The position numbers and the translations under genes were made by a program. A stretch of DNA of 64,000 nt from Asaia prunellae JCM 25354 (GTDB lineage: Bacteria > Pseudomonadota > Alphaproteobacteria > Acetobacterales > Acetobacteraceae), in the NCBI RefSeq assembly GCF_000613885.1, contig NZ_BAJV01000008.1:1-64000 (forward strand), given 5' to 3'. The notes under the pieces were generated by a model, which was not told the origin of the DNA, did not search any database, and saw only the letters and a list, made by a program, of their open reading frames with translations. Shown in pieces: positions 379 through 17,936 of the stretch; position 1 is the stretch's first letter; the number at the start of each line of letters is the position of its first letter.

Positions 379-1512
379 ATGATGAAAATCGCGTTTCCCT
401 ATATCGCCCAACCCCATCAGACCCTGCACTCTCTGCCCATCGCCATGGAGATCGCCTCAAGGCACGCAGATACCGAAGTGCATGTTGCGTGCACGACAGA
501 AGCCCATCTCGATTATGCCAAGACGCTGAGCGCTCTCTATCCTCAGGCACGAGCCCGTTTCGATCTGCTCAAGATGCCTCAGATTCTTCGCCGACGCATT
601 GAGATTTCCGGACCCGGCGTTTTGGGCAAAATGGCTAGCCTGTTTTTCAATCGCGACTATTTTTCGCGTTTCGAGGCTATTGTCGTCCCTGAACGCACGT
701 CTCTTTATCTACGCCGCATGGGTATTCACAAACCACGCCTTATCTGGACGCGCCATGGCGCGGGAGATCGAGCCATTGGCTTTGCCCGCGACGTGAAGGA
801 ATTCGACTTCGTCCTGCTCTCAGGCAAAAAAATTGAAGAACGCCTGTTATCACAAGGCGCCATAAGCCCAGGTCGTTACTATCGAGGATCCTACGCCAAA
901 TTCGATATCGTCCGGAAAATGGCACGTTCGCGTCCGGCCCTGTTCGATAATGACAAGCCGATCGTATTATACAATCCGCACTTCTCGTCACGCCTGTCGT
1001 CCTGGCCACTTATGGGCGAAAAAGTTCTGCAGTATTTTGCCAATCAGGACCGGTACAATCTCATATTTGCACCGCATTATCGCCTGTTTGACAAATACCG
1101 ACAGGAAGGAGAGCAGCTTGTTGCACGCTTTGCCAATCATGATCATCTTCTGATCGATCCTGGCAGTCCGCGCAGCATTGACATGACCTATACCATGGCC
1201 GCCGACTTATATCTTGGAGATGTAAGCTCTCAGGTCGCCGAGTTTCTTGTTCGCCCCAGACCCTGCATCTTTCTCAATGCGCATCAGGTCTCTTGGCAAT
1301 CGGACAGGAATTACCATTTCTGGAATCTTGGCGAGGTTCTCGACAATCTCGAAGAGCTTCCAGGTGCGCTCGCAGCTGCCGTAACAAAACATGACGATTT
1401 CCTTGAGGCGCAGCGGCAATATATATTAGAGACTTTCGAATTCAACGACGACGGACCCACCGCCCCCGGGGCTGCGGATGCCATTGTCGATTATCTTCGC
1501 AACGCAGCCTAA
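379..1512 (+). CDS. CDP-glycerol glycerophosphotransferase-like GT-B protein
   Basis: A 377-residue protein with the outline of the CDP-glycerol glycerophosphotransferase / UDP-GlcNAc epimerase-like GT-B fold. Visible signs are TRHGAGDRAIGF around residue 124, a second Rossmann-like start at PIVLYNPHF (about 194), FAPHYRLF (about 231) and the C-terminal ADLYLGDVSSQVAEFLV (about 275), which corresponds to the usual ADVLITDYSS motif. There are no membrane segments or signal peptide, so it probably acts at the cytoplasmic face of the membrane. It begins with two consecutive ATG codons (379 and 382) and no strong ribosome site. It lies 81 bases before a fatty acyl-AMP ligase of the sphingolipid set. 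By context I infer that it transfers a CDP-activated phospho-group onto a lipid, possibly a ceramide, as proposed for ceramide phosphoglycerate synthesis in Caulobacter. The substrate is not shown by the sequence, and a polysaccharide-related role remains possible. Confidence 0.6.
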   Translation: MMKIAFPYIAQPHQTLHSLPIAMEIASRHADTEVHVACTTEAHLDYAKTLSALYPQARARFDLLKMPQILRRRIEISGPGVLGKMASLFFNRDYFSRFEAIVVPERTSLYLRRMGIHKPRLIWTRHGAGDRAIGFARDVKEFDFVLLSGKKIEERLLSQGAISPGRYYRGSYAKFDIVRKMARSRPALFDNDKPIVLYNPHFSSRLSSWPLMGEKVLQYFANQDRYNLIFAPHYRLFDKYRQEGEQLVARFANHDHLLIDPGSPRSIDMTYTMAADLYLGDVSSQVAEFLVRPRPCIFLNAHQVSWQSDRNYHFWNLGEVLDNLEELPGALAAAVTKHDDFLEAQRQYILETFEFNDDGPTAPGAADAIVDYLRNAA

Positions 1513-1593
1513 CCCATTACGCATGGATCTGGCCGGGGTTCCCTTGACCCTGCACATCCATGACAGAGCGAAAAGCAGAGCAGATCCATCACT

Positions 1594-3327
1594 ATGACGT
1601 CGAACCAAACGCCCGTTCCTACTGCATCGAACCAGAAGCGCCGCTACGGCGATTTTCCGACGTTCAGCGCTGCCCTGGATTACGCGGCACAGGGCACGGC
1701 AGGGTTCAATATCTATAATGGTCGCGGACAGCTTCTCGAAGCCCTGCCTTACAGCCTGCTCCGTACCCAGGCGATTGAAACGGCACGCCGCTTGTTGGCC
1801 GCAGGACTTTCCGTCGGGGATCGTGTCGCCATTATTGCGGAAAGCGATGGTGATTTCGCCCGCATTTTCTTTGGCTGCCAGTATGCGGGGCTTGTACCCG
1901 CCCCATTGCCATTGCCCATCGCGTTCGGCGGTCGCGACGCCTATATCTCCACATTAAGAGGCATGGTAGCCGCCTCGGGTGCCCGCGCCGTTGTCGTTCC
2001 CGACCTGATCGGCTCCTGGAAGCAGGATATCACCGAAGGCCTCGATCTGGCTTTTGGCGGCTCACCGGCCGAACTTCTCTCCCTACCCCCTTCCGATCAG
2101 GATCTTCCTGCAATTAGGGAAGAAGATCTCTCTTATCTGCAATTCTCATCGGGCAGTACACGCTTCCCTATGGGAGTGGCTGTTACTCAGTCAGCTGGTA
2201 TGGCCAACGCGCGTGCCATTGCCCGCGACGGGCTCAAGGTAACCGAGACCGGCGATCGCTGCGTGTCATGGCTCCCGCTTTATCATGATATGGGCTTGGT
2301 CGGTTTTTTCCTGACTCCGATGACCTGCCAGCTGACAATCGATCTCCTGCCGACCCGGGAGTTCGCTCGTCGGCCGCATGTCTGGCTCGATCTGATCAGT
2401 CGGAATCGTGGTACGATTGCCTATAGCCCATCATTTGGCTACGAGCTCTGTGCGCGTCGCCCGGTATCAGGCGATCTCGATTTGTCCTGCTGGCGTATCG
2501 CCGGCATTGGCGGTGACATGATCCGCCATCATATTCTTGAAAATTTTGCCCAGCGTTTTGCAGATTCCGGTTTCGATGGCCGCGCTTTCGTCGCCAGCTA
2601 TGGCATGGCAGAAGCAACACTCGCTATCAGCTTTGCCCCACTCAATACCGGCATCGTTACCGACACGATCAATCTGCGTACGCTGGAGACTGATGGTGTG
2701 GCGGTTGCCTCTGACGATCCATCACAGGCGCTTCGTACCTTCGTTCTTTGCGGCGTCGCCCTGCCGGAACACGATATTCAGGTACGTGGTGCGAAAGGTG
2801 ATCTCCTCACCGAACGTCACGTGGGAATGGTCTATGTTCGCGGGCCAAGCCTGATGCGTGGATATTTCGGTCGAGATGAAGAAACAGCCGAAGTACTGGA
2901 CGACAAGGGCTGGCTGAACACGGGCGATCTTGGCTACATGCTGAATGGTCAGGTGGTGATCACAGGCCGGGCAAAAGATCTGATCATCATCAATGGACGC
3001 AATATCTGGCCGCAGGATCTTGAATGGTCGGCGGAACATGAAATTCCTTCCCTGCGTTCACGTGACGTCGCTGTTTTTGCTGTTGAGGAAGAGACAGGTG
3101 AACGTGTCGTCGCGCTGGTCCAGTGCCGTGCCACAAATGAGGAAGACCGGGCCAAGCTCCGCGAGGAGACAATGGGCCTGTTCCGTCGTCAGCATGGCAT
3201 TGAGGTCGATGTTATTCTCGTCCCTCCGCACACACTCCCCCAGACATCTTCCGGCAAGCTGACACGAGCCCGCGCCAAGGCAATGCTTCTTTCAGGGCAG
3301 TTCGAAACCAGCTGCACCGCAGCCTGA
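1594..3327 (+). CDS. Fatty acyl-AMP ligase / acyl-ACP synthetase (FAAL type), sphingolipid pathway
   Basis: A 577-residue adenylate-forming enzyme. It carries the nucleotide-binding loop LQFSSGSTRFPMG (about residue 181), the FAAL hallmark LPLYHDMGLVGFF (about 227), the SYGMAEATLA adenylation motif (about 333), the NTGDLGY hinge (about 440) and the C-terminal SSGKLTRAR catalytic lysine segment (about 553). FAALs activate a fatty acid with ATP and pass it to an acyl carrier protein. The next gene is an ACP and the one after it is serine palmitoyltransferase. In Caulobacter an equivalent acyl-ACP synthetase, a dedicated ACP and SPT cooperate in ceramide synthesis, so the same role is likely here: charging the ACP with the acyl chain used by SPT or by the N-acyltransferase. 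Its length is normal and the reading frame is intact. The start at 1594 has only a weak ribosome site. Confidence 0.85.
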   Translation: MTSNQTPVPTASNQKRRYGDFPTFSAALDYAAQGTAGFNIYNGRGQLLEALPYSLLRTQAIETARRLLAAGLSVGDRVAIIAESDGDFARIFFGCQYAGLVPAPLPLPIAFGGRDAYISTLRGMVAASGARAVVVPDLIGSWKQDITEGLDLAFGGSPAELLSLPPSDQDLPAIREEDLSYLQFSSGSTRFPMGVAVTQSAGMANARAIARDGLKVTETGDRCVSWLPLYHDMGLVGFFLTPMTCQLTIDLLPTREFARRPHVWLDLISRNRGTIAYSPSFGYELCARRPVSGDLDLSCWRIAGIGGDMIRHHILENFAQRFADSGFDGRAFVASYGMAEATLAISFAPLNTGIVTDTINLRTLETDGVAVASDDPSQALRTFVLCGVALPEHDIQVRGAKGDLLTERHVGMVYVRGPSLMRGYFGRDEETAEVLDDKGWLNTGDLGYMLNGQVVITGRAKDLIIINGRNIWPQDLEWSAEHEIPSLRSRDVAVFAVEEETGERVVALVQCRATNEEDRAKLREETMGLFRRQHGIEVDVILVPPHTLPQTSSGKLTRARAKAMLLSGQFETSCTAA

Positions 3328-3493
3328 ACCGGCAGGGGGAGACAGGATTATGAATCTTCCCCTTCATGTCATGGCAAGACGTGCGCGACGTGTGAAAACA
3401 GGTCGTGCTCTGGCGTTAAGACATACAGTGTCGCATAAGACCCATCACCACAGGGCGTAAGCCGCCCGAATGCCTCTACTCGGAGACTTTGAA

Positions 3494-3751
3494 ATGGCCG
3501 ATACGGTCGCCTCCATTGCCTCGTTGATCATCGACAAACTGCTTGCCAACCCGAAAGTCCCCCGGGACATCACAGGTGAAAGCAAAATTGTGGAAGATCT
3601 TGCCTTCGATTCTCTTGCCGTCATGAACTTCGTGATGGAAATCGAAGACGAACTCGATGTGTCCGTACCGCTGGACAAACTCGCTGATATCCGCACGATC
3701 AACGATCTTGCATCCTGTCTCGCTACCTTGAAGACAGGCACCTCCTCGTGA
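3494..3751 (+). CDS. Dedicated acyl carrier protein of the sphingolipid cluster
   Basis: An 85-residue acyl carrier protein with the phosphopantetheine attachment motif LAFDSLAVMNFV; the carrier serine is about residue 40. I chose the ATG at 3494 because GGAG at 3482-3485 sits eight bases before it. An in-frame ATG at 3470 would add eight residues and has no ribosome site. It is distinct from the housekeeping AcpP at 18085-18324, which has GADSLDT at the same place. Its stop overlaps the GTG start of serine palmitoyltransferase (GTGA at 3748-3751), so the two are translationally coupled. Known biology of the Caulobacter system suggests that it delivers the acyl thioester to SPT in place of acyl-CoA. 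The 166 bases before it show no other gene. Confidence 0.9.
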   Translation: MADTVASIASLIIDKLLANPKVPRDITGESKIVEDLAFDSLAVMNFVMEIEDELDVSVPLDKLADIRTINDLASCLATLKTGTSS

Positions 3752-4940
3752 CCGATATCTTTGCCAAATATGCAGGGCTCAAGGCCGCTGCAGCCGGGCT
3801 GACGGCCCATTCGCCGCGCAACCCTTTTGGTGTCGTTATCGATCACCCCGTGTCAGCCACTGTTGGCCTGATTGAGGGCCGTGAAACACTGCTTTTCGGT
3901 ACGAATAATTATCTCGGCCTCAGTCAGTCCAAGGCCGCTGCCGATGCCGCGATCGAGACGGTGCGTCGTGAAGGTGTAGGGACTACGGGTTCCCGCATCG
4001 CCAACGGTACATTCGCCCTGCATCGCAAGCTCGAAATGCGCCTGGCTGAAGTATTCCGTCGTCGCCACTGCATGATTTTCTCGACGGGATACCAGGCCAA
4101 TCTCGGGGCCATATCAGCGCTGGCAGGCAAGGACGACGTGCTGCTTCTCGATGCAGACAGCCACGCCAGCATCTATGATGCAAGCCGCCTTGGCTACGCA
4201 CAGGTCATACGCTTTCGCCACAATGACCCGACAGATCTGGACCGCCGTCTTGCCCGCCTGAAAGATCATCAGGGAGCAAAGCTCGTCGTCGTCGAGGGCA
4301 TCTATTCGATGACGGGCAATGTCGCACCCATGCGCGAATTTGCCGAGGTAAAAAAGAAGCACGGCGCCTATCTGCTTGCCGATGAAGCGCATTCGTTTGG
4401 TGTTCTTGGCGAAAACGGTCGTGGTGTAGCCGAACGTGATGGCTGTGAAGATGATGTCGATTTCGTTGTCGGCACTTTTTCCAAAAGCTTGGCACGGTTG
4501 GCGGTTATTGCGTGTCCAATCTCGACGGTCTGGAGCTGATCCGTCTCTGCTCGCGTCCTTACATGTTCACAGCTTCGCTGCCGCCTGAAATCATTGCGGC
4601 AACGCTTGCTGCCCTTGATGACATGTTAGCCCATCCCGAATTGCGCACCCAGCTTCATGCCAATGCCAGGCAGCTCAACCATGGCCTACATGCTCTGGGT
4701 CTCAAAACCAGCCCACATGTAAGTCCTGTTGTGGCCGTTACACTCGACAATGTCGAACAGGCTCTGGCTTTCTGGAATCGCCTTCTTGAACTGGGCGTTT
4801 ATGTCAATCTATCCCTGCCTCCCGCAACTCCTGACGAACACCCGCTTCTGCGCTGTTCGGTCATGGCGGTTCATACTGCCGAGGAAATAGATCGTACTCT
4901 GGCTATTTTCGCACAGGCCAAACAGGATGTCCTGGGCTGA
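3748..4940 (+). CDS. spt: Serine palmitoyltransferase, with one frameshift
   Basis: An alpha-oxoamine synthase that condenses serine with a fatty acyl thioester to 3-ketosphinganine, the committed step of sphingolipid synthesis, with PLP as cofactor. Seen: GTNNYLGLSQ near residue 51, GTTGSRIANGT, FSTGYQANLGA, DADSHASIYDA, DEAHSFGVLG (cofactor Asp and His) and TFSKS with the PLP lysine near residue 246; the C-terminal part has SRPYMFTASLPPEII. The frame breaks near 4491 directly after the PLP lysine: TTGGCACGG should read TTGGGCACGG, giving SLGTVGGYCVSN and joining the second frame at 4512. With that base restored the protein is 397 residues, normal for the family. I therefore treat it as a functional gene carrying a sequencing error. 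The start is GTG, overlapping the ACP stop. If the shift is real, this strain makes no sphingolipid. Confidence 0.88.
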
Positions 4941-4967
4941 AGCAAAGACCTGACGTTATAAAAAAAA

Positions 4968-4991
4968 GCGAAAGGTCACATGACCTTTCGC
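4968..4991. terminator. Palindromic terminator between convergent genes
   Basis: A perfect inverted repeat, GCGAAAGGTCA-CA-TGACCTTTCGC, lies between the ends of the SPT gene (4940) and the nucleotidyltransferase-like gene (5004). On the - strand it is followed by a run of seven or more T (bases 4960-4967), and on the + strand by CTTCTTC, so it can serve both genes and is strongest for the - strand. Confidence 0.8.
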
Positions 4992-5003
4992 CTTCTTCAT
5001 ATC

Positions 5004-5947
5004 TCAGCCTCGCATACCGCGGATAAAAACCGATCGTGCGCGCCAGAGCAAAACAGGCAGACAGATCAGCGGATGGCGCGCCTCGAACGGTGAGAGCGCC
5101 AGGACAAACCCGCTATGACGCTCTATTTTCCATGCCAGATAGCGGCACCATTGCGAAAAGTAAATGCCGCCTTGACCAGACGGGCAATATTCTTCCAGCG
5201 GCCACGGCTTGCCATATGCTTCCATCGGCGTGCTGCCCGCAGACGCTGAGCATTGGTCAGTCTTGGTGCCAGGCTTTCACCCATTTCGTCGAAATCAAGA
5301 TGGGCATTCTGCCAGGCAAGACGGGTCAGAGCAGCATATCGCGCCTCCTGACCATGCATGATCACCGAACCGCGCCCTGACCGCTCAACCCGCAATTCAG
5401 CACGGTAAGTCTGCCTGAAAAGCGCCTCCCACCATTGCTCAGGAAGATGTGCCCCCTTCTCCAAACGTGCAGCCCAGCCTGCTGCCGTCGTAACACATGT
5501 GCGGATCACCGAAAGGATCGCGTCCGCTGCCTGAGGATCTCTTACCCAAACGAGGCGTACAGGCTGACAGAAGCGTGCCCAGAGAGTTGTATCATCCGAA
5601 CGGGGCGTGACACCTGCTCGAAACTGCGACAGTGTCAGCACAGCAACCTTTGCCCTCAATACCTGACCGTCATTTTCATGTTCGGCATAAAAGACATTGG
5701 GAGGCAGGACGCGATTACCCAGCTTTGCCAGAGGCGACCCCGGCCAGTCGGACAAATTTTCAAGCACGACATAGAAATCGAACAGGCCATCAGGATCGAA
5801 TTTTCTCAGGCCAGAACCATAGAAAAGCACACCAAGGGGGCGGGCCGGACCAAGTATGTGTGTCACCAGGGCAGAAAGTCGTGAATCGACCGGGGTTGTC
5901 AGTTCGCCAATAAGGAAATGATCAAGAGCGACACGGGCTTCAGTCAT
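5004..5947 (-). CDS. Nucleotidyltransferase-like protein of unknown substrate, with one frameshift
   Basis: The N-terminal half has GVLFYGSGLRKFD followed by LFDFYVVLENL, then LPPNVFY and KVAVLTLSQF, and later WARFCQPVRLVW. The GSG plus D-F-V pattern is that of a polymerase-beta-like nucleotidyltransferase and recalls, weakly, the TAM41 type of CDP-diacylglycerol synthase; I rate that family match as tentative. The ATG at 5947 overlaps the stop of the upstream lipid kinase (ATGACTGA at 5947-5940), so the two are coupled and probably act in sequence on a lipid. The frame breaks near 5140: as read, the protein ends at 5123 with AAIWHGK, while one added base gives AAYLAWKIERHSG and continues to a stop at 5004, for 314 residues in all. 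The C-terminus is basic and hydrophobic, which suggests membrane association. An activated phospholipid or phospho-ceramide product is inferred from context only. Confidence 0.6.
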
Positions 5948-6899
5948 GCACAAACCCGAATTCCGGTCCCTGGGACAGAATGATCTGATTATTCGCTCCA
6001 GGTGAGAAACACTCGCCATCCAAGACGAAATCGCCCTTGCAGGTCAGGGTCAGACTTTCCGCCCGCCCGCTCGTATAATCAGGACTCTCACGCAGCCAGT
6101 CTGGTGCACGACCACGTAACAGAGCCCATGTTGCCTGCATCAGCCGTTTCGGGTGATCGGCAACATGGAGATAATGCAGTCCATCTGTTTTCGTCTTGTC
6201 CGCATTCCAGAACGGCCAGATACCAAGATTAAGCTTTTGCAGGGCCGTCGATAGGAACATGAAACTCCGGCCCTCAGCCACTGTCCTGCCTTCGCTTTCA
6301 AGAACAAAGCGATCTCCCGCCAGCCAGGTTTCCCGCTGGCGACGCCGTAGCAGACCACCAAAAGCCTCAATCAATGTTACCGCTACAGCAAGATTATGCG
6401 GCGCATAGCGCAGGACATGGGGAGAATGGGCTATGGCAATTGCCCGTGCATAGCCGGAACTGCCCTGAAACATGCCCAGACGGAATTCATGTTCATCTTT
6501 TGGCCATGATATCTTGAGCGGGCGGCGCATGGTACGCTGAAAAATTCCGCTTCTCTCATACAGCTGCCGCAGGGCCTGAATACCCCGACGTGAGAAACCT
6601 ATATCCTGAGCAATCAGATTCGTATTGCCGGAGGGAAAGATGGCAATGTCGGGCAGGGAGCCGGAAGGATAGCTACGCGCTATGGCGGTCATTACATCAC
6701 TGACAGTGCCATCGCCGCCATTGATTGCAATGAGTGGCACTGCAGAACGGGCAAGTGCGGCAACCATTTCCTGCATCTCGTCATGCGAGGACGGTACCAG
6801 AAAGCCGTCACCGAGAAGAGCACTCGCATGGAGCGCGAATTTTCTGCCATCCCGCCGGTTTTTGCGACTGCGCGGATTATGGATCAGGGCTAGACGCAC
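5940..6899 (-). CDS. Diacylglycerol kinase-family lipid kinase (possible ceramide kinase)
   Basis: A 319-residue protein with the DAGK catalytic domain: IHNPRSRKNRR at the N-terminus, NGGDGTVSDV (about residue 59) and FPSGNTNLIAQD (about 88), plus the C-terminal LDGECF loop typical of YegS/DgkB-type lipid kinases. It would phosphorylate a lipid hydroxyl with ATP at the inner membrane. It starts with GTG at 6899. It sits between serine palmitoyltransferase and a fatty acid hydroxylase and is coupled to a nucleotidyltransferase-like gene. In Caulobacter a homologous kinase (CpgB) phosphorylates ceramide, so ceramide is the best guess for the substrate. Diacylglycerol or a sphingoid base are alternatives. 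The frame is intact. Confidence 0.8.
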   Translation of the reverse strand: MRLALIHNPRSRKNRRDGRKFALHASALLGDGFLVPSSHDEMQEMVAALARSAVPLIAINGGDGTVSDVMTAIARSYPSGSLPDIAIFPSGNTNLIAQDIGFSRRGIQALRQLYERSGIFQRTMRRPLKISWPKDEHEFRLGMFQGSSGYARAIAIAHSPHVLRYAPHNLAVAVTLIEAFGGLLRRRQRETWLAGDRFVLESEGRTVAEGRSFMFLSTALQKLNLGIWPFWNADKTKTDGLHYLHVADHPKRLMQATWALLRGRAPDWLRESPDYTSGRAESLTLTCKGDFVLDGECFSPGANNQIILSQGPEFGFVHD

Positions 6900-7066
6900 G
6901 GCAGTATCATTTATGTTATGGTCATCCCTTCAGCCCGACGGAACATCTGGGATCCGTCATGGGCGGCGCCATAGCATGACTAAGGCAGAACGACCAGAAA
7001 CCGATTGGTCATTTTTAACTTTTGCCGCTATCAGCCTCTGACATGTGGCAAGGATGAGAAAGGCTG

Positions 7067-7969
7067 ATGACCCTGAACAAAGACTCACCGGTGGTTCTGG
7101 CGCATCTGTCCGACGTGCATCTCCCCCCTCCCTCACCTCTGCCATCCTGGCGACATTTTACCAACAAACGCGCCCTCAGCGTGGCCTCATGGAAGCGTCA
7201 TCGCGTTCATCACCACCTGCCTGCCCTCTCCGATGCCATTCGCGAGGACATCAACAAGGCCCGGCCCGGTCTGATCCTGAATACCGGAGATCTGACCAAT
7301 TTCGGTCTGAGCGAGGAATTCAGCAATGCTGCTGCCTGGCTCCGCACGATGGAAGCACCATGCCTCGTCGTGCCTGGCAATCATGACGCTATGATCAGAG
7401 AGTCCTGGCAGCAAACAGGAGCCTGCTGGTCTCCCTGGATGCAGGCATGCGAAGAAAACGCCTTTCCTTACCTGCATGAGCAGGGCGATCTTGCGATCAT
7501 CGGCTTGAACAGTGCCATACCAAGCCTGCCTTTCATGGCATGTGGCCGTATTGGTAAGGCCCAGCGCGCGCGTCTTGCCGATCTTCTTGCCGCGACCCGT
7601 GACCGCTGCCGCGTCGTTATGATTCACCACCCTCCCAGAGGCAGGCTCGTGCCGTGGCGCAAATCCCTGCTTGACCTCAAGGCGGTCGCTGCCGTCATTG
7701 CCCGCCACGGTGCAGCCATGGTTCTTCATGGTCATTCGCATGATGCCACACTCTCGACGGTACCGGGAACATCCATTCCTCTCATCGGTGTGGCTTCGGC
7801 GTCTTTGCACTCCACAAAGCCATGGCGCCATAGTGGCTGGAACAGGATTGCGATAGAGCGCAGGGATTCAGGTTGGGAGGTCGATCTGACGACACGCCAA
7901 TTCACGCAGGCGCTGGGATGGCGATATAGTCGTCACCGCACCTGGCTTATCCGCGACGGACAGGGCTGA
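7067..7969 (+). CDS. Calcineurin-like metallophosphoesterase
   Basis: A 300-residue phosphoesterase with all five metal-binding blocks: HLSDVHL (about residue 13), TGDLT (about 72), PGNHD (about 104), HHPP (about 187) and HGHSHD (about 222). The family cleaves phosphomonoesters or diesters, including cyclic nucleotides, UDP-diacylglucosamine and phospholipids. The substrate cannot be read from the sequence. GAGAAAGG before 7067 is a fair ribosome site. The stop codon shares its last base with the LptF start (TGATG at 7967-7971), so the gene is coupled to lptF-lptG and then to the hydroxylase, NTP transferase and glycosyltransferase. A role in trimming a lipid phosphate intermediate is a reasonable inference. 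Confidence 0.85.
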   Translation: MTLNKDSPVVLAHLSDVHLPPPSPLPSWRHFTNKRALSVASWKRHRVHHHLPALSDAIREDINKARPGLILNTGDLTNFGLSEEFSNAAAWLRTMEAPCLVVPGNHDAMIRESWQQTGACWSPWMQACEENAFPYLHEQGDLAIIGLNSAIPSLPFMACGRIGKAQRARLADLLAATRDRCRVVMIHHPPRGRLVPWRKSLLDLKAVAAVIARHGAAMVLHGHSHDATLSTVPGTSIPLIGVASASLHSTKPWRHSGWNRIAIERRDSGWEVDLTTRQFTQALGWRYSRHRTWLIRDGQG

Positions 7970-9159
7970 TGCGCCTTCCCCATTTTCCGACTCTGGATCG
8001 TTATCTGCTTGTCCAGCTCGTACCGCCATTCGTCGTCTCTCTTGCTGCTGTTCTTGCCGCCCTGCTGCTCGAACGCCTGCTTGTCCTTTTTGACGATCTG
8101 GCGGCTGAAGGCAGTTCTCTTGCCACGTTCGTCTCTCTGCTGACCGACCTTCTGCCTCATTATCTCGGACTGGCTCTCCCCGCCGCACTTTGCGTCAGTG
8201 TATTCCTCATCATCAGACGCATGAGTGACAACAACGAGATTGATGCTCTCATGGCGAGTGGCGTATCCCTGCTTAGGATTGCGCGCCCCTATAAGTGGAC
8301 AGGTGTCCTGGTGGGGCTCGGCAGCGTTCTGCTCTATGGGTATATCCAGCCCGTGGCACGCTATGATTTCCGTTCGGGTTTCTACTATGCTGCCCATTCC
8401 GGCTGGGCTCCTCATCTGCAGGGGGGTATGTTTGCCACGACCTCCGGAGATTCAATGCTCACTGCCAATCGCGTCACGCATAACGGCACCGTGCTGTATG
8501 AAGTCTTCATCCGTCAGCGCGAACCCGATGGCAGCGTCAGGATTATCACAGCCCGTCGCGGGCTGGTTACAGCGGTTCCTTCACTGAGACAGACGCGTCT
8601 CGATCTGTGGGATGGTCTGATTGTCTATGACCCACGAAATAGCAGCAACAAGCCAAGCCAGACCCGCTTCGAGCACAGTATGCGGACCTTCGACCAGAAC
8701 CATGATACCGCAGCCTTCCGGTCTCGTGGCATTGATGAACGTGAACTGACCCTTGTGGAACTGGCTACCCGGCTGGAAGCTTCCCATCAGCCAGACACGC
8801 CTGTCGGCGATAATGTCATCACCCGCTCCAGCCTGCGCGCTGAACTCGATTTCCGCCTCGCCCGCGCGATCGCCATTCCCTTCATTCCATCCCTGGCCGT
8901 GGCTCTCGCCATCGGCGCCAAACGGCGTCGCCCGATCATGGGACTTATTGCCCTTGCTCTTGTGCTGGTCGGCTTCGATCATATGCTGCAATTCGGGCAC
9001 GGACTTGTCGCAACAGGCCGCATGAGGGGACTTTACGCCATATGGCTGCCTGAAATCCTATTCTGCACCCTCTGCATGGCATCTATTTTCAGGCGATCAC
9101 GGGGTTCATGGCGTCGTCGCAAGGCCATTCCGCTTTCCGGGTCGGGGCGCATGGCATGA
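7969..9159 (+). CDS. lptF: LptF-family permease (LPS or lipid export)
   Basis: A 396-residue LptF/LptG-family permease. It has an N-terminal membrane helix after RYLLVQLVPPF, further helices at about residues 60-105, a soluble periplasmic beta-jellyroll region (about 125-280), and three C-terminal helices ending with RRSRGSWRRR. In the known system LptF and LptG form the transmembrane part of the LptB2FG extractor that pulls LPS out of the inner membrane. The gene overlaps the preceding phosphoesterase stop by one base and the next gene by ATGA. Unusually, lptD, surA and pdxA, which I recall following lptFG in many acetic acid bacteria, are absent. This pair sits instead in a sphingolipid cluster, so it may be a second copy with another lipid cargo. 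Confidence 0.85.
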   Translation: MRLPHFPTLDRYLLVQLVPPFVVSLAAVLAALLLERLLVLFDDLAAEGSSLATFVSLLTDLLPHYLGLALPAALCVSVFLIIRRMSDNNEIDALMASGVSLLRIARPYKWTGVLVGLGSVLLYGYIQPVARYDFRSGFYYAAHSGWAPHLQGGMFATTSGDSMLTANRVTHNGTVLYEVFIRQREPDGSVRIITARRGLVTAVPSLRQTRLDLWDGLIVYDPRNSSNKPSQTRFEHSMRTFDQNHDTAAFRSRGIDERELTLVELATRLEASHQPDTPVGDNVITRSSLRAELDFRLARAIAIPFIPSLAVALAIGAKRRRPIMGLIALALVLVGFDHMLQFGHGLVATGRMRGLYAIWLPEILFCTLCMASIFRRSRGSWRRRKAIPLSGSGRMA

Positions 9160-10248
9160 CCGGCCTTCCCCCATCAGGCGCTGTGCTGCGCGCCTATCTG
9201 ACACGCTCCTTTCTAAGCCGGACCCTGCTCTGTGCAGCAATCCTGATTTCCATGCTGGAAATACTGGGTCTGCTCGAAATGACGACGCCCATCCTCGAAC
9301 GCCATCTGGGAGGCATGGGCCTGATTCATTATGCCCTACTGAGGCTGCCTGTACTGGCTGTGCAGACTCTGCCACTCAGCACGCTGATCGGCGCCCTGTT
9401 TCTTCTGATGCAGATGACTCTGAACAGCGAAACAGCCAGTTTGCGGGCTGCTGGCCTGTCAACAAGACGCCTGCTGATCCTGCTGCTGCCCTCAATAGCC
9501 ATAATCAGCCTGGCGGGAATCATCACACAGGAATTCATTGCGCCCCATACCGAGATTGCTCTTGCCAAGTGGTGGAACAAGACAGATCCGGAAGCACGAT
9601 CGGACAGCCATGGCTTCTGGTTTCATGCCCGGGGCAATGTGGTGCATATTGACGGTTTCAGCGACGGGGGACGTCGTATCTCGAACATCACCCTGTATCA
9701 CCGTATTCCGGGCGGCGATCTTGTCGCATCGGATACCGCGCCGGAAATGACCTATGATCCCACAACCGGATGGCACGCTGCATCGGTACGAAGCCTTCTG
9801 CTCAGGAGCAATCGGGTCGACATCGAGCATCGCACAGATATCGTGCTGCTGCCTGCCAGCGTCACTCCTGAAACACTGATCCAGCTTTCGCAGAATTATC
9901 CTGTTCTTTCTTTCTGGAGCCTCTGGGCCATTCTGCATGGACACGCCCCGTCGAGCCTGCCCAAAGCAACCTACCGCATGGCCCTTTACGCACCGTTTAC
10001 GCTACCCATATCACTCTGTGCCATGCTGTTCCTCGCCCTGCCCGTGATCTATATTCCCCCCCGTACGGGTACACGCAGTCTGCTGCCGATTGCGGCACTT
10101 GCCGCCGGTTTTGGTTTCATCGTCCTGCAAGGACTGATACAGGCACTGGGTAACGCGGGGACTGCCTGCCTCGATTGCCGTCATGGCACCTCCCGTCCTG
10201 GCATTTCTCCTTGGAGGGGCCTGGATTGTGAAGATGGAAGAAAAATGA
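9156..10248 (+). CDS. lptG: LptG-family permease, with one frameshift near the C-terminus
   Basis: An LptG-type partner of the preceding LptF: N-terminal LRAYLTRSFLSRTLLCAAILISM, helices to about residue 115, a periplasmic domain (HARGNVVHIDGFSDGGRR) and C-terminal helices. I take ATG 9156, which overlaps the lptF stop (ATGA), rather than 9108, which would lie well inside lptF. Near 10160 a run of four G should be three. The corrected frame then reads GNAGLPASIAVMAPP and ends WIVKMEEK-stop at 10246-10248, giving 363 residues. As sequenced, the frame runs on into the downstream hydroxylase and gives a false 600-residue fusion. The corrected stop overlaps the next ATG (ATGA), which supports the repair. 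Confidence 0.85.
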
Positions 10249-11075
10249 GCACGTTCGATCCTGAACCTTCTGAAGGCTTCTGGAGAGCCTTCTGGAAAGC
10301 CCGGAAAAACCAGGGTTCCCTCCGCACTGGCCGAAGCTTCGATCTTGGCAAGATGAGTCTTCCCCAGCTCTGGATGGCCTATCTGACCTATCCCACTATC
10401 CTGCTTTATTTTGCCCTGATCCTTGTCTCAGCCGGTATTGCCATTGCCTTGACACCACGACTCGTGCCGACACTGATCGTTGCCGTACTGGTCGTCGCCA
10501 TCTATCCTTTTGCCTGGTACGCCATTCATCGTTTCATCCTCCATGGCCGCTGGCTCTATCGTAACCCGTTGACCGCCTCTTTGTGGAAACGTGTGCATTT
10601 CGACCATCATCAGGATCCCCATCTTCTAGATGTTCTTTTCGGCTCACCGCTGAACACCATCCCGACCATTGCCATCATCGTCATGCCTATCGGCTGGGCA
10701 CTTGACGGACCAAGCGCCGCCTTTACAGCGCTGGCAACCGGTCTGATCATGACCTGCATCTACGAGTTTTTTCACTGCATCCAGCATCTGGCCTACAAGC
10801 CCCGCTGGGCCTGGGTGGCCAAGATCAAGCAGTTGCACGTGCTGCACCATTTTCATGATGAAGACGGCAATTACGGTATCACCAACTATGCTGCCGATCG
10901 CCTCTTCCGCAGTTTCTACAAGGATGCGCGTGCGCGGCCGCGCAGCGCTCATGTGTTTGATCTCGGCTACGATATTGATGAAGCCAAACGCTATCCCTGG
11001 GTCATGAAGCTCACTGGTGCTCCACCCAAACAACGTCCCGATGGTGCGCGCAGCAGCGGTAGCTCTGCACGGTGA
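10245..11075 (+). CDS. Fatty acid hydroxylase (sterol desaturase superfamily)
   Basis: A 276-residue integral membrane di-iron hydroxylase. The histidine clusters HRFILH (about residue 89), HFDHH (about 110), HCIQH and HVLHHFH (about 175-205) match the eight-histidine pattern of PF04116, and membrane helices surround them (about 45-65, 70-90, 130-165). Enzymes of this type hydroxylate acyl chains or sphingoid bases (FA2H, Sur2). Acetic acid bacteria are known to contain 2-hydroxylated ceramides, so hydroxylation of the ceramide acyl chain is the likely reaction; C4 of the long-chain base is the alternative. The start ATG overlaps the corrected lptG stop, and the stop overlaps the GTG of the NTP transferase. 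The reading frame is intact from 10245. Confidence 0.85.
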   Translation: MSTFDPEPSEGFWRAFWKARKNQGSLRTGRSFDLGKMSLPQLWMAYLTYPTILLYFALILVSAGIAIALTPRLVPTLIVAVLVVAIYPFAWYAIHRFILHGRWLYRNPLTASLWKRVHFDHHQDPHLLDVLFGSPLNTIPTIAIIVMPIGWALDGPSAAFTALATGLIMTCIYEFFHCIQHLAYKPRWAWVAKIKQLHVLHHFHDEDGNYGITNYAADRLFRSFYKDARARPRSAHVFDLGYDIDEAKRYPWVMKLTGAPPKQRPDGARSSGSSAR

Positions 11076-11830
11076 CATTTCCGGTTCTGGTTCTCGCAGG
11101 TTCACGCGACGGGGCGCAGGATCCGCTTGCCCGGCTGGGCAAAGTGGCTCACAAGGCTCTTCTTCCGGTTGCTGGCCGCCCCATGATCGACCGTGTTCTC
11201 GAAACACTCTCGAGGACACCGGATATAGGGCCGGTTCATGTCAGCACAGAAGCACCCGAAGCGCTTGAAACTCTCGACAGAATATTCACCTGCCTGCCGA
11301 CGGCCAAAGGCCCCAGCGGGAGCGTCGCTCTGGCGCTCGACCATCTTGGCACGCCATTGCTGATCACCACAGCCGATCACCCCCTTCTGCAATCTCTCTG
11401 GATTACCGAGTTTCTCAGGGCAGCCCAGTCCACGCCTTGTGACCTTGCTGTCGGTATTGCCCTGCGTCACGTGATAGAACGCGATGTACCAGGGACCAGA
11501 CGCACCTATATCTCCCTGCGTGACATGCGGTTTTCAGGTTGCAACCTGTTCCTGCTGCGCACGCCAGAAGCCCGGGCAATCATTACCCTCTGGCAGAAAC
11601 TCGAACGCGATCGCAAACACCCTCTGAAAATGGCGCGCACACTGGGCCCGACCATTTTACTCCGCGCTCTGCTCGGACGTCTGGACAGCCAGACACTGAC
11701 AGCGCGTATTCATGCCCTGACCGGTGCAACCGTCACACTCGTACCCATTGATCACGGTCGCGCTGCCGTAGATGTCGACAAACCCCAGGATCTTGCCCTG
11801 GTTGAATCGCTTCTGGCTGAAGCCCCATGA
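11072..11830 (+). CDS. NTP transferase domain protein (GT-A nucleotidyltransferase)
   Basis: A 252-residue protein of the MobA/GlmU-like nucleotidyltransferase fold. It has LVLAGSRDG at the N-terminus (in place of LAGGxGTR), HKALLPVAGRPMIDRVL (about residue 27) and TTADHPLL (about 90) as the metal-binding Asp motif. No membrane segment is visible. The family makes NDP-activated small molecules such as CDP-alcohols or NDP-sugars. It starts with GTG at 11072, overlapping the hydroxylase stop, and its own stop overlaps the glycosyltransferase start (ATGA at 11827-11830). In this setting it could make the activated head-group donor used by the CDP-glycerol-transferase-like protein at 379. A phosphoglycerate cytidylyltransferase (CpgD) has been described for Caulobacter sphingolipids, but I cannot tell whether the two are homologous. 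Confidence 0.7.
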   Translation: MTFPVLVLAGSRDGAQDPLARLGKVAHKALLPVAGRPMIDRVLETLSRTPDIGPVHVSTEAPEALETLDRIFTCLPTAKGPSGSVALALDHLGTPLLITTADHPLLQSLWITEFLRAAQSTPCDLAVGIALRHVIERDVPGTRRTYISLRDMRFSGCNLFLLRTPEARAIITLWQKLERDRKHPLKMARTLGPTILLRALLGRLDSQTLTARIHALTGATVTLVPIDHGRAAVDVDKPQDLALVESLLAEAP

Positions 11831-12900
11831 AAATTGCCTATGTCATCAATTCGGTCGAGGGCGGCGGTGCGGCGCTTCCCGTACCTGCGATTACTCAGGT
11901 TATGCGCCAGAACGGACACGAGGTGATTGTCCTTGCCCTTACCCGACGTGATGGGCGAGCAATAAAACCCATGATCCAGGCCGGGCTGACCGTGCATGTG
12001 CGCGAAGGGGGCAAAAAAGATCATCTTGCTGCTTTGCTATGGCTCAATCGCGAGATAGCCGAGCAAAAACCCGACCTGATCTGGACATCGCTCACACGAG
12101 CCACATTGCTGGGCCAACTGACAGGATTGCGTCAGCGTCTTCCGGTTGTGAGCTGGCAACATTCTGCACGTCTCAAACCAGCCAATGCGAGGCTACTTCG
12201 CCTGATGCGCAGGCTCTCTCGCCTGTGGATCGCTGACTCCCTGTGTGTTCAGCAGGAAACAGAACGCAAGCTTGGTCTGGGCGCGAACAAACTTACCTGC
12301 TGGCCGATCTTTCGCGCGAGCGACAGCTTCCCGATCGCACCACCATGGTCCCAAGGTAGCCCGATCCGTATTGGAAGCCTCGGTCGTCTGCATCCGGTAA
12401 AGGGTTACGACGTATTGTGCGAAGCAGTACGTCTGCTTCAGAAGATAGATAATCTCCCGGCGTATGAGGTCCATATTGCCGGCGAAGGAGAAGAGCGAGA
12501 CCGTCTGGCCGCACTTATTGCACATGACGCTCTGCCAATCGTCCTTGATGGCTATAACGCTGAACCGAAGCAGTTTCTCTCTACCCTGCACGTCTATGTT
12601 CAGCCGTCGCATTGGGAAGGGCTCTGTCTGGCCGCTCATGAAGCTCTGCTCTGCGGTGTACCCGTGATCGCTTCCGAAGCCGGTGAATTGCCGCATACGA
12701 TCGACCACAGCTGTGGCCGTATCGTACCCCCAGATAATCCGGAAGCCCTCGCCCTGGCCCTCGTCAATCTTCTTCGCCAGCCTCAGCACCTTGCCCGGAT
12801 GGGACGGGCCGGACGTGATCGGGTTCTCGCGCGTTTTGATGCCGAATCATTCGACAGGCGCGGTCAGGAAATCCTAACGCGCCTCGAAAGAACTCTGTGA
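11827..12900 (+). CDS. GT4-family glycosyltransferase
   Basis: A 357-residue retaining GT-B glycosyltransferase. The N-terminal acceptor domain begins MKIAYVINSVEGGGAA; the donor domain begins near residue 178 at RIGSLGRLHPVKGYD, and carries HIAGEGEERDRL, the acidic PSHWEGLCLAAHEAL motif (about 260) and VIASEAGELP. It is cytoplasmic or membrane-peripheral. It closes the chain of overlapping genes that begins at 7067. Glycosylation of a ceramide (a glycosphingolipid) or of a head group is a reasonable inference, since Caulobacter sphingolipids are glycosylated by similar enzymes. An LPS sugar transfer role is the alternative given the neighbouring lptF and lptG. The frame is intact. Confidence 0.85.
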   Translation: MKIAYVINSVEGGGAALPVPAITQVMRQNGHEVIVLALTRRDGRAIKPMIQAGLTVHVREGGKKDHLAALLWLNREIAEQKPDLIWTSLTRATLLGQLTGLRQRLPVVSWQHSARLKPANARLLRLMRRLSRLWIADSLCVQQETERKLGLGANKLTCWPIFRASDSFPIAPPWSQGSPIRIGSLGRLHPVKGYDVLCEAVRLLQKIDNLPAYEVHIAGEGEERDRLAALIAHDALPIVLDGYNAEPKQFLSTLHVYVQPSHWEGLCLAAHEALLCGVPVIASEAGELPHTIDHSCGRIVPPDNPEALALALVNLLRQPQHLARMGRAGRDRVLARFDAESFDRRGQEILTRLERTL

Positions 12901-13813: not shown

Positions 13814-14607
13814 ATGACCGATCACCGTCTCATTGCGCAACGTCTGGAGGTCGCACGCGCCGTGGTTGCCGATGCCGCTGCCCTGGCTATGGCAATGCGC
13901 CCCCCGCCGGGCGGTCCGGTTGGCAGCATGAAGGGTGTGCAGGATTACGTAACCGAAGCCGATATGGCCGTTGAAGCCCTTGTCTCGAAACGTATTGAGG
14001 CTCTGTTCCCTGAAGATGGTTTCATGGGTGAGGAAGGCGGTCGTCAGCGCGAGGGGGGACTGACATGGGTCATCGACCTATTGACGGAACGTCCAACTAC
14101 GCGCGCGGAAGGGAGCGCTGGTGCGTCTCGCTGGGTCTCATGGAGGGTGCCGTACCCGTTGCCGGAGTGATCAATGCTCCTGCCCTAGGTGAAGTCTATA
14201 CAGCACAGCGTGGCGTCGGTGCCTGGTTGAATGGCCAGAAACTGATTGCCTCTCCCGTAACGGATGCAAAAAGCGCCATGATCGAAATCGGCTGGAGTGC
14301 CAAAGTCTCCCCCGAGACCTATGCCAGCCGCGCCAAAGCCTTTCTTGAGCTTGGCATGGCACCACGGACAGGCGCCTGCGGCGCTCTCGCACTTGCTGAT
14401 GTCGCTTCAGGACGCTCTGACGGCTATCTTGAAATTGCAATCAATCTCTGGGATGTCGCCGCTGCGCTGGTTCTGATCGAGGAAAGCGGCGCACGCGTCT
14501 CCCCCTTTCTTGTCAACGGCGGTCTGACCGGTGCGATTCCCATTCTGGCAACCGCACCGGGGGTAGCCGAACTGGTCGCCAGAGCGGCAGGAATGGACCT
14601 TCTCTGA
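13814..14607 (+). CDS. Inositol monophosphatase family protein, with one frameshift
   Basis: A magnesium-dependent phosphatase of the IMPase/FBPase superfamily. The signature WVIDPIDGTSNYARG (near residue 89) binds the metals, EEGG lies before it, and the second signature INLWDVAAALVLIEESGA lies near residue 212. The frame breaks in the first signature near 14078: GACCTATTG should read GACCCTATTG. The upstream frame ends at 14170 and the second frame is open from about 14065. Repaired, the protein has 264 residues, as usual. Substrates of this family range from inositol phosphate to histidinol phosphate and 3'-phosphoadenosine nucleotides. GGAGTG before 13814 is a good ribosome site. Confidence 0.87.
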
Positions 14608-16653: not shown

Positions 16654-17936
16654 TCAGATACCCTTGACGATCAGGCTGGCATTGGTGCCACCAAATCCGA
16701 AACTGTTTGAAAGCGCGATATTGATTTTCCGTTGCTGCGCTTCATGCGCCACGCGGTCGATCACGCTCTCCCGGGCCGGGTTGTCAAGGTTCAGTGTAGG
16801 AGGGGCAACATTATCGCGAATAGCCAGCATAGAGAACATTGCTTCAACCGATCCGGCAGCCCCAAGGAGGTGACCTGTAGCGGATTTGGTTGAAGACATC
16901 GCAACCTGCTTCGCATCATCGCCGAACAGACGTTCAACGGCATCGAGCTCCAGATCGTCAGCCATGGTCGAGGTTCCATGTGCGTTAACGTAATCGATAT
17001 CAGCCGGAGTGATACCGGCGGAACGCAGCGCCGCCTTCATGGCACGGAACGCACCTTCATGACCCTCTGCTGGTGCCGTGATATGATGAGCATCCCCTGA
17101 CAGGCCATAGCCGATGATCTCACCGTAGATTTTTGCACCACGAGCTTGGCGTGCTCATATTCCTCGAGCACGACGATGCCGGAACCTTCCCCCATGACGA
17201 AACCGTCACGATCCCGGTCCCAGGGACGCGAGGCCTTCTCCGGCGTATCGTTAAATCCGGTTGAAAGTGCGCGTGCCGAAGAGAACCCGGCGATACCAAG
17301 CGGGCAGACAGCTGCTTCGGCCCCGCCTGCAATCATCACATCAGCATCACCGAGCATAATGAGGCGCGTCGCATCACCGATGGCATGTACACCAGTGGCA
17401 CAGGCTGTCACGGCAGAATGGTTCGGGCCCTTGAACCCGTACCGAATCGAAACGTGACCAGAGATGAGATTGATCAGCGCCGAGGGTATGAAAAATGGCG
17501 ACAGACGGCGGGCCTTGCCGCTCGCCACCGTCAGGGACGCATCATATATGGTCTGAAGACCACCAATGCCCGAGCCGATCATCACGCCGGTAGCGCAACG
17601 GTCTTCTTCAGTCTCGGGCTTCCAGCCCGAGTCCTCGACAGCCTGTATGGCAGCCGCCATGCCAAGATGGATAAAGCGATCCATCTTCTTCTGGTCCTTC
17701 GTCGGAACCCAGTCGGAAAGCGTCAGACCACCTTCTGCCGTCGGTCCTTCAGGCACCTCTCCCGCCACATGGGCCGGAAGATCGCTCGGATCGAAGCAGG
17801 AGATACGACCAATACCGGTTTTTCCGGCAATCAGACGCTGCCAGGTCTGTTCCACGCCCACCGCCAGTGGCGTGACAAGCCCCATACCGGTGACGACAAC
17901 GCGTCTTTCTTTCATTGCCGATAGGTTTGCCATCAT
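16654..17936 (-). CDS. fabF: Beta-ketoacyl-ACP synthase II, with one frameshift
   Basis: The elongating condensing enzyme of type II fatty acid synthesis, acting on acyl-ACP with malonyl-ACP. The N-terminal part has RRVVVTGMGLVTPL and the active-site cysteine segment SAVTACATGVHAI; the C-terminal part has NAHGTSTM and KSATGHLLGAAG with the two catalytic histidines, and NSFGFGGTNASLI at the end. Near 17145 the coding strand reads AAGCTCGT where AAGGCTCGT gives KARGAKIYGEIIGYG and joins the second frame. Repaired length is 427 residues from ATG 17936, or 420 from the ATG at 17915 (MKERRVVV). An essential gene with a perfect continuation after one missing base is best explained by a sequencing error. 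Confidence 0.92.

Follow-up and report, generated by a model that had tools for sequence, protein, structure and literature searches.

How acetic acid bacteria (AAB) complete a ceramide is the question raised by the first 64 kb of contig NZ_BAJV01000008.1 of Asaia prunellae JCM 25354 (the window; contig C31 of genome G000, 3.18 Mb in 38 contigs, 95% complete). Here, twelve genes spanning positions 379–12900 form a sphingolipid cluster that contains neither a ceramide reductase (CerR) nor a bacterial ceramide synthase (CerS). Judged by its genes and their order, the cluster is the AAB form of the Caulobacter crescentus ceramide-phosphoglycerate locus. The explanation that we consider probable is that an anionic, acyl-hydroxylated ceramide is made and probably exported, and that in AAB the sphingoid base is reduced and N-acylated by a short-chain dehydrogenase (SDR) and a GNAT-family acyltransferase, here called aSDR and aGNAT. 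An earlier note on this DNA had proposed a cluster for an anionic ceramide, akin to the Cpg genes of Caulobacter, which gene content and conserved order bear out. The genes that it named (the PF04464 protein, fatty acyl-AMP ligase (FAAL), acyl carrier protein (ACP), serine palmitoyltransferase (SPT), nucleotidyltransferase, DAGK-type kinase, hydroxylase, NTP transferase and GT4 glycosyltransferase) all lie where it placed them; the phosphoesterase and the LptF/LptG pair were left out.

The distribution of CerR and CerS was surveyed with a seven-row alignment of CpgC, the nucleotidyltransferase of the cluster, keeping the best 80 of 568 loci, to which all counts of AAB and non-AAB loci below refer. 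By title, 51 of the loci are from AAB (Asaia, Swaminathania, Gluconobacter, Saccharibacter, Bombella, Parasaccharibacter, Neokomagataea, Novacetimonas, Komagataeibacter, Acetobacter, Gluconacetobacter, Nguyenibacter and two "Acetobacteraceae" records) and 29 are not. Neither CerR nor CerS was found in any of the 51 AAB loci, within flanks of up to 10 kb that were in many cases cut by contig ends; CerS is present in 24 and CerR in 19 of the 29 non-AAB loci. In the non-AAB clusters (Nevskia, Stagnimonas, Niveispirillum and others), CerR is commonly flanked by FAAL and ACP, while CerS tends to follow LptG2 or the hydroxylase and to precede the NTP transferase. Two compact loci (L147 and L148, from genomes G264 and G553) have the order FAAL-CerR-ACP-SPT-phosphoesterase-CerS, with CpgB and CpgC not within the 20 kb fetched.

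At the level of whole genomes, a CerR search of 42 Acetobacteraceae genomes gave matches of 249–690 bits in eight and of no more than 88 bits in the other 34. The best Asaia match, an epimerase on contig C24, scores 68 bits at 30% identity; because all eight CerR genomes also hold a second-best match at 65–84 bits, this score is what a background paralog would give. A tree was built from 45 proteins (38 CerR loci were supplied, five of which fell outside the length limits); a branch with 100/100 support separates the 33 CerR from twelve proteins of genomes lacking CerR, the Asaia protein being one of the twelve. The C24 epimerase was rejected as CerR on its score and its place outside the CerR clade. 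Its best NCBIfam model, HpnA, does not discriminate, as CerR has the same best model and both are far under the cut-off (66 and 77 versus 368 bits). A CerR ortholog was thus not found in this 95% complete genome, and three other Asaia genomes (99–100% complete) agree. Canonical-clade CerS is not in the genome either; one GNAT of the family is present, and it is the sister-clade aGNAT. The earlier statement that the reductase and N-acyltransferase genes are not in the window holds for the window itself, but no CerR ortholog was found in the genome, and the acyltransferase candidate, on another contig, belongs to a sister clade.

An unlikely alternative is that the Caulobacter pathway operates unchanged, with a diverged CerR encoded elsewhere reducing ceramide while aSDR and aGNAT serve another pathway, for example that of a different aminolipid. 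Epimerase-family matches to CerR at E 0.001 are indeed found in 42 of the 42 genomes searched, but the background-level score of the Asaia protein, set against 249–690 bits in CerR-bearing relatives, and its exclusion from the CerR clade count against this reading, as do the distribution and setting of the pair.

A CerS search in Asaia returned one protein, aGNAT (34% identical; G000:C28:91582-92946, minus strand). Divergently oriented and 25 bases away is aSDR, a 268-residue classical short-chain dehydrogenase (G000:C28:92972-93778, plus strand). Among 200 Acetobacteraceae genomes, aGNAT (at least 265 bits, next 226) and aSDR (at least 175 bits, next 137) occur in the same 48, where the thresholds were chosen after the score gaps were visible and G126, with split genes, was added. 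In 47 of them the two genes sit side by side in divergent orientation (gaps of 25–526 bases between matches); in G123 they lie on two contigs. The pair is present in 45 of 54 CpgC-positive genomes, which are all 45 of those without canonical CerS, a correspondence not expected if the Caulobacter pathway were unchanged. Each of these 45 has a single GNAT-family member at E 1e-20 (the two matches in G126 are pieces of one). In the other nine CpgC-positive genomes the GNAT scores as canonical, and the eight that were searched (all but G138) hold both CerS and CerR. Three genomes (G010, G105 and G132) have the pair and lack CpgC. Nine more CpgC-negative genomes, chosen because their GNAT scores were intermediate, carry a canonical CerS (52–69%), with a clear CerR nearby in eight. 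In a class-wide search, the 25 best loci outside Acetobacteraceae were of CerS type, none with the SDR beside it. Fisher's exact test of the pair against CpgC gives p = 5.6e-32, a value that ignores relatedness and is not used here as evidence of independence. In a ranking by RecQ, all 26 genomes nearest Asaia (66–100% identity, G060 being the last of them) carry CpgC, so no loss event was found within AAB with which to test the link between pair and cluster. Adjacency and the G056 locus described below are therefore stronger evidence than co-occurrence.

In G056, an SPT-like enzyme, an SDR and a GNAT are embedded in a locus that also encodes CpgC, LptF2, LptG2, the phosphoesterase, the hydroxylase and the NTP transferase—an arrangement that again disfavors assigning the pair to an unrelated pathway. 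Because the three SPT-family proteins of G056 are each 32–33% identical to the Asaia siamensis SPT and CerR does not exceed 88 bits, this triple is the likeliest ceramide route of G056. A triple of the same kind stands alone in G010 and G105. We regard as improbable, more so than the unchanged pathway, that aGNAT acylates the sphingoid base while some other oxidoreductase reduces it and aSDR is merely a neighbor. The Asaia genome has many SDRs (45 first-look candidates, 12 of them scored) and the role of aSDR is a predicted one, but two observations count against mere neighborhood: aSDR adjoins aGNAT in 47 of 48 genomes, and SPT-like/SDR/GNAT triples occur.

The relation of aGNAT to the canonical synthase was examined in a tree of 50 proteins, using the last 395–400 residues of each. 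Of the AAB loci fetched, 19 of 30 entered this tree, as did 26 of the 29 CerS loci chosen (the other three had no usable CerS). The SDR-paired GNATs form one branch (100/98) and canonical CerS forms another (94/92). aGNAT belongs to the same protein family as the bacterial ceramide synthase bCerS (29–42% identity to a canonical CerS over most of its length) but forms a separate clade with another gene neighborhood, divergent with an SDR. Two GNATs beside a very long open reading frame (a polyketide synthase where checked) stand apart from both branches. In G102 (L105:923-12421), a type I polyketide synthase is followed by an SPT-like enzyme, a CerS-like GNAT and a capsule-synthesis protein; the layout in G016 (L115:967-11015) is similar, with a very long open reading frame ahead of genes for an SPT-like enzyme and a CerS-like GNAT. 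These related GNATs lend the unchanged-pathway alternative some support, and the two loci may represent a possible second class of sphingoid-like lipids.

aSDR carries GxxxGxG, S and YxxxK, and its T-G-S-G-G, S and Y/K residues (nucleotide-binding and catalytic) are invariant in 29 distinct sequences. It has no evident signal sequence when read by eye, and reduction would therefore be cytoplasmic. In the known system, CerR is periplasmic and CerS cytoplasmic (PMC11087976). Bacteroides BT_0972, an SDR described as reducing 3-ketosphinganine (PMC9278070), and eukaryotic KDSR/Tsc10 share with aSDR the SDR family, GxxxGxG, S/YxxxK and the proposed reduction of a sphingoid base. We favor, with somewhat less assurance than the pathway as a whole, the view that AAB ceramide is completed wholly in the cytoplasm, the divergent aSDR and the sister CerS family having jointly replaced periplasmic CerR and canonical CerS while the kinase, the Tam41-like CDP-ceramide synthase and the LptF2/LptG2 branch were kept. 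Both ceramide and dihydroceramide are reported from Acetobacter malorum (PMC10626005 and PMC11722302), so a reductase should exist even though no CerR ortholog was found. Ceramide production by AAB is accordingly already known, so that the earlier view of an undescribed pathway holds for the gene route only: a literature search that covered few subscription papers found no account of an AAB gene for ceramide reduction or synthesis.

The remainder of the cluster was compared with the C. crescentus phosphosphingolipid locus CC_1168-CC_1152, as laid out in PMC11324152, PMC12275187 and PMC10331486. The two share FAAL, ACP, SPT, CpgC, CpgB, the phosphoesterase, a second LptF/LptG and a CofC-like NTP transferase in comparable order. 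They differ in that no CerR, canonical CerS or PF01066 CpgA was found in Asaia, whose cluster adds the PF04116 hydroxylase, the PF04464 protein and GT4, and in that a second LptC was not detected in Asaia. The gene order is kept throughout AAB and also beyond them. The kinase of the window occupies the conserved CpgB slot in the DAGK family, with a GGDG motif that is invariant across 54 aligned cluster kinases of 300–360 residues, and is predicted to act as CpgB. Its partner likewise has homologs in the same slot of non-AAB clusters, including that of a Caulobacteraceae metagenome-assembled genome (MAG; L272). The correspondence of this kinase and nucleotidyltransferase to CpgB and CpgC thus finds support in both position and family.

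Neither Pfam (at E 0.01) nor a sequence search of the PDB gave a meaningful match for the CpgC family, Pfam giving none at all; the best match to the window protein among named records (in the best 80 of 568) is from Asaia siamensis. Its conserved motifs include FYGS-LR, LDFY, LPPNV, WARF-QP and TY-AELR-E. A structure was predicted for the A. siamensis ortholog from 34 aligned sequences, that of the window included (mean pLDDT 89.8, pTM 0.87), and searched with Foldseek. The top four hits are chains of the CDP-diacylglycerol synthase Tam41 (6ig4 and 7ecd among the best) with probability 1.00 and E 1.2e-07 to 1.4e-06, and aminoglycoside nucleotidyltransferases rank behind. The likeness to Tam41 is one of best predicted-fold matches, with moderate TM-scores (0.45–0.58), rmsd of 5–7, 11–15% identity and a lipid substrate presumed to be ceramide-1-phosphate. 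CC_1161 has an InterPro CDP-diacylglycerol synthase domain and has been suggested as a possible maker of NDP-activated ceramide (PMC11324152), with which the predicted fold agrees. We infer that CpgC is a Tam41-like enzyme, with CTP-dependent cytidylylation of ceramide-1-phosphate as its predicted reaction.

Other head-group enzymes correspond less closely. In L269 (Niveispirillum) and L195 (G535), a PF01066 protein lies between CpgB and the phosphoesterase, and fits the description of CpgA, as judged by the wording of the paper and by position. Used as a query against 18 genomes, it matched G121, G063 and G102 alone at 381–409 bits; five further matches of 18–24 bits are not orthologs, and no match at E 0.001 was found in this genome or in three other Asaia genomes. 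Since the description of CpgA fits the PF01066 protein, the CDP-glycerol-transferase-like protein of the window, a PF04464 member that the earlier note had expected to be related to the Cpg proteins, was rejected as CpgA. It has no PDB match by sequence at E 0.1 and its gene is present in 33 of the 51 AAB loci, some of them cut by contig ends, and was not found in the fetched region of the Asaia relative G149; the GT4 gene is present in 27 of the 51. The NTP transferase does belong among the Cpg-locus genes, as that note had it, but in the CC_1153 slot and not in that of CpgD. CpgD (CCNA_01210), which makes CDP-glycerate (PMC12275187), would be CC_1152 by the constant offset among other gene pairs. 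The best PDB match of the NTP transferase is TTHA0179 (2.6e-23), and its match to the CofC model (E 0.0034) is far under the model cut-off. L195 contains two PF01066 CDP-alcohol transferases in one sphingolipid cluster (4985-10831), one beside CpgB and one beside LptG2.

A PDB search with the hydroxylase to E 0.1 gave two entries, both of yeast Scs7 (E 0.0066 and 0.009; weak), and the protein adjoins CerS in 16 of 25 non-Acetobacteraceae loci; on these two grounds it belongs to the cluster, as had been proposed. It is present in 50 of 51 AAB loci versus 6 of 29 non-AAB loci. Scs7 is the yeast ceramide very-long-chain fatty acid hydroxylase, and the likeliest role of the bacterial protein would be to act on the ceramide acyl chain. 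2-Hydroxylated ceramide has been associated with AAB; the literature searched here gave no account of it. The sphingolipid cluster of a Nevskia MAG includes a fatty acid desaturase (L263:13426-14406) bearing the sphingolipid delta4-desaturase domain PF08557, which suggests bacteria making sphingosine-type unsaturated bases.

The window LptF is 30–39% identical (E 1e-42 to 1e-68) to LptF in the six sphingolipid clusters compared, which come from other orders and classes, and 26–27% identical over partial length (best E 2e-14) to the other LptF/LptG copies of its own genome, on contig C38. The closer match to cluster copies elsewhere speaks for a dedicated pair retained by descent; the same has been proposed for LptF2/LptG2 of Caulobacter. 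The pair probably carries the product to the outer membrane; how sphingolipids reach that membrane is called not known in PMC11324152.

From the gene content, its conservation, the positional and phylogenetic correspondences and the co-occurrence and divergent pairing of aSDR and aGNAT, together with the predicted CpgC fold, we infer the following enzyme activities and transport. FAAL and ACP would supply fatty acyl-ACP, which SPT would condense with serine to 3-ketosphinganine. In AAB, including Asaia (where both genes are on another contig), aSDR would reduce the ketone and aGNAT acylate the amine, in either order, and the hydroxylase would hydroxylate the acyl chain. CpgB would phosphorylate the ceramide and CpgC, with CTP, convert ceramide-1-phosphate to CDP-ceramide, leaving a further enzyme to complete a phosphoglycerate-type head. 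The NTP transferase, phosphoesterase, PF04464 protein and GT4 may give lineage-specific decoration, and LptF2/LptG2, presumably with a shared LptB, would carry the product outward.

Several points weigh against this explanation. CerR is missing from 10 of the 29 non-AAB loci, including five of Methylopila type (L248, L256, L259, L261 and L262) in which FAAL, ACP, SPT, CpgC and CerS are present and CerR is not in the fetched flanks; the reductase may lie elsewhere or be replaced. Because these five have FAAL, ACP, SPT and CerS without CerR, absence of CerR from the locus alone is weak evidence. The co-occurrence of aSDR and aGNAT is largely that of one clade, the AAB, and so reflects few independent events; of the numerous SDRs, no more than 12 first-look candidates were scored in any one genome. 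In G010 the SPT-like enzyme has its best score as a BioF-type protein, and the triples may make another product. aSDR is likened to BT_0972 and KDSR/Tsc10 by family and description, and adjoins a relative of bacterial CerS. The correspondence with Caulobacter rests on published order, families and relatives, with the Caulobacteraceae MAG L272 as the nearest named record; CpgA has no ortholog, so the head group is uncertain. Finally, the genome gives a single LptC match, where a diverged second copy could be missed.

The features of the cluster are collected in Table 1. On the plus strand lie PF04464, FAAL, ACP and SPT; CpgC and the kinase follow on the minus strand, and the genes from the phosphoesterase to GT4 are again on the plus strand. 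The SPT matches PDB serine palmitoyltransferases (best 2x8u, E 3.8e-77).

Table 1. Genes of the sphingolipid cluster, with positions in the window and the matches that identify them.
Feature	Position	Strand	Evidence and remarks
PF04464, CDP-glycerol:glycerophosphotransferase-like	379..1512	+	PF04464 5.3e-07, above cut-off; head-group transferase candidate
FAAL, fatty acyl-AMP ligase (aasR-like)	1594..3327	+	NF006624 E 1.5e-267, 888.5 bits vs cut-off 600
Dedicated ACP	3470..3751	+	PF00550 2.1e-10
SPT, frameshifted	3748..4940	+	NF047599 (first piece) E 3.8e-119, 398 bits, below whole-protein cut-off 500
CpgC-like nucleotidyltransferase	5007..6019 (open frame 5123-6019)	-	Conserved family; predicted Tam41 fold
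CpgB-like lipid (ceramide) kinase, DAGK family	5940..6899	-	PF00781 8.3e-12
Calcineurin-type phosphoesterase, CC_1158 slot	7067..7969	+	PF00149 1.4e-14; position conserved
LptF2, LptF-like permease	7969..9159	+	PF03739 1.4e-52
LptG2, LptG-like permease	9108 to about 10163-10220	+	PF03739 5.8e-55
PF04116 hydroxylase, ceramide acyl-chain hydroxylase candidate	about 10221..11075	+	PF04116 1.4e-18
NTP transferase (NTP_transf_3), CC_1153 slot	11072..11830	+	PF12804 1.6e-17
GT4 glycosyltransferase	11827..12900	+	PF00534 1.8e-27, PF13439 1.7e-10

Reading frames in the first 22 kb of the window were checked against Asaia siamensis proteins. By this comparison, the SPT is split over two frames, with a break near 4491, and the C-terminus of CpgC is frameshifted at 5141-5174; the end of LptG2 (10163-10221) reads in frame into the hydroxylase through a frameshift. 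Such breaks could mean that the locus is decaying in this strain, but an inositol-monophosphatase-like gene (13814-14607) is broken at 14077 and FabF (16654-17936) at 17145, with about 98% identity on either side of the FabF break, and each A. siamensis gene in the comparison is one uninterrupted open frame. FabF, moreover, has a housekeeping function. Decay is thus very improbable, and the breaks are likely sequencing errors of the assembly. A natural LptG2-hydroxylase fusion was rejected, given the frame break at the overlap and separate genes in 15 of 20 relatives' loci. Several draft assemblies start about 5 kb from CpgC, like the contig of the window. In G149, assembled as a single contig, the region some kilobases upstream of FAAL (L037:15990-18573) encodes 23S and 5S rRNA together with a tRNA; in an Rfam search of three loci, rRNA and one tRNA near the G149 locus were the only matches.

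What is new here is that AAB seem to lack CerR and CerS at the locus and to carry instead an unstudied aSDR/aGNAT pair encoded elsewhere. AAB have been tested as a dietary ceramide source (PMC10626005 and PMC11722302). The genes of the pair can be deleted in laboratory strains of AAB, which would bear on whether reduction or acylation comes first, and a dedicated Lpt pair in tractable bacteria would offer a second place to test the route of sphingolipids to the outer membrane.

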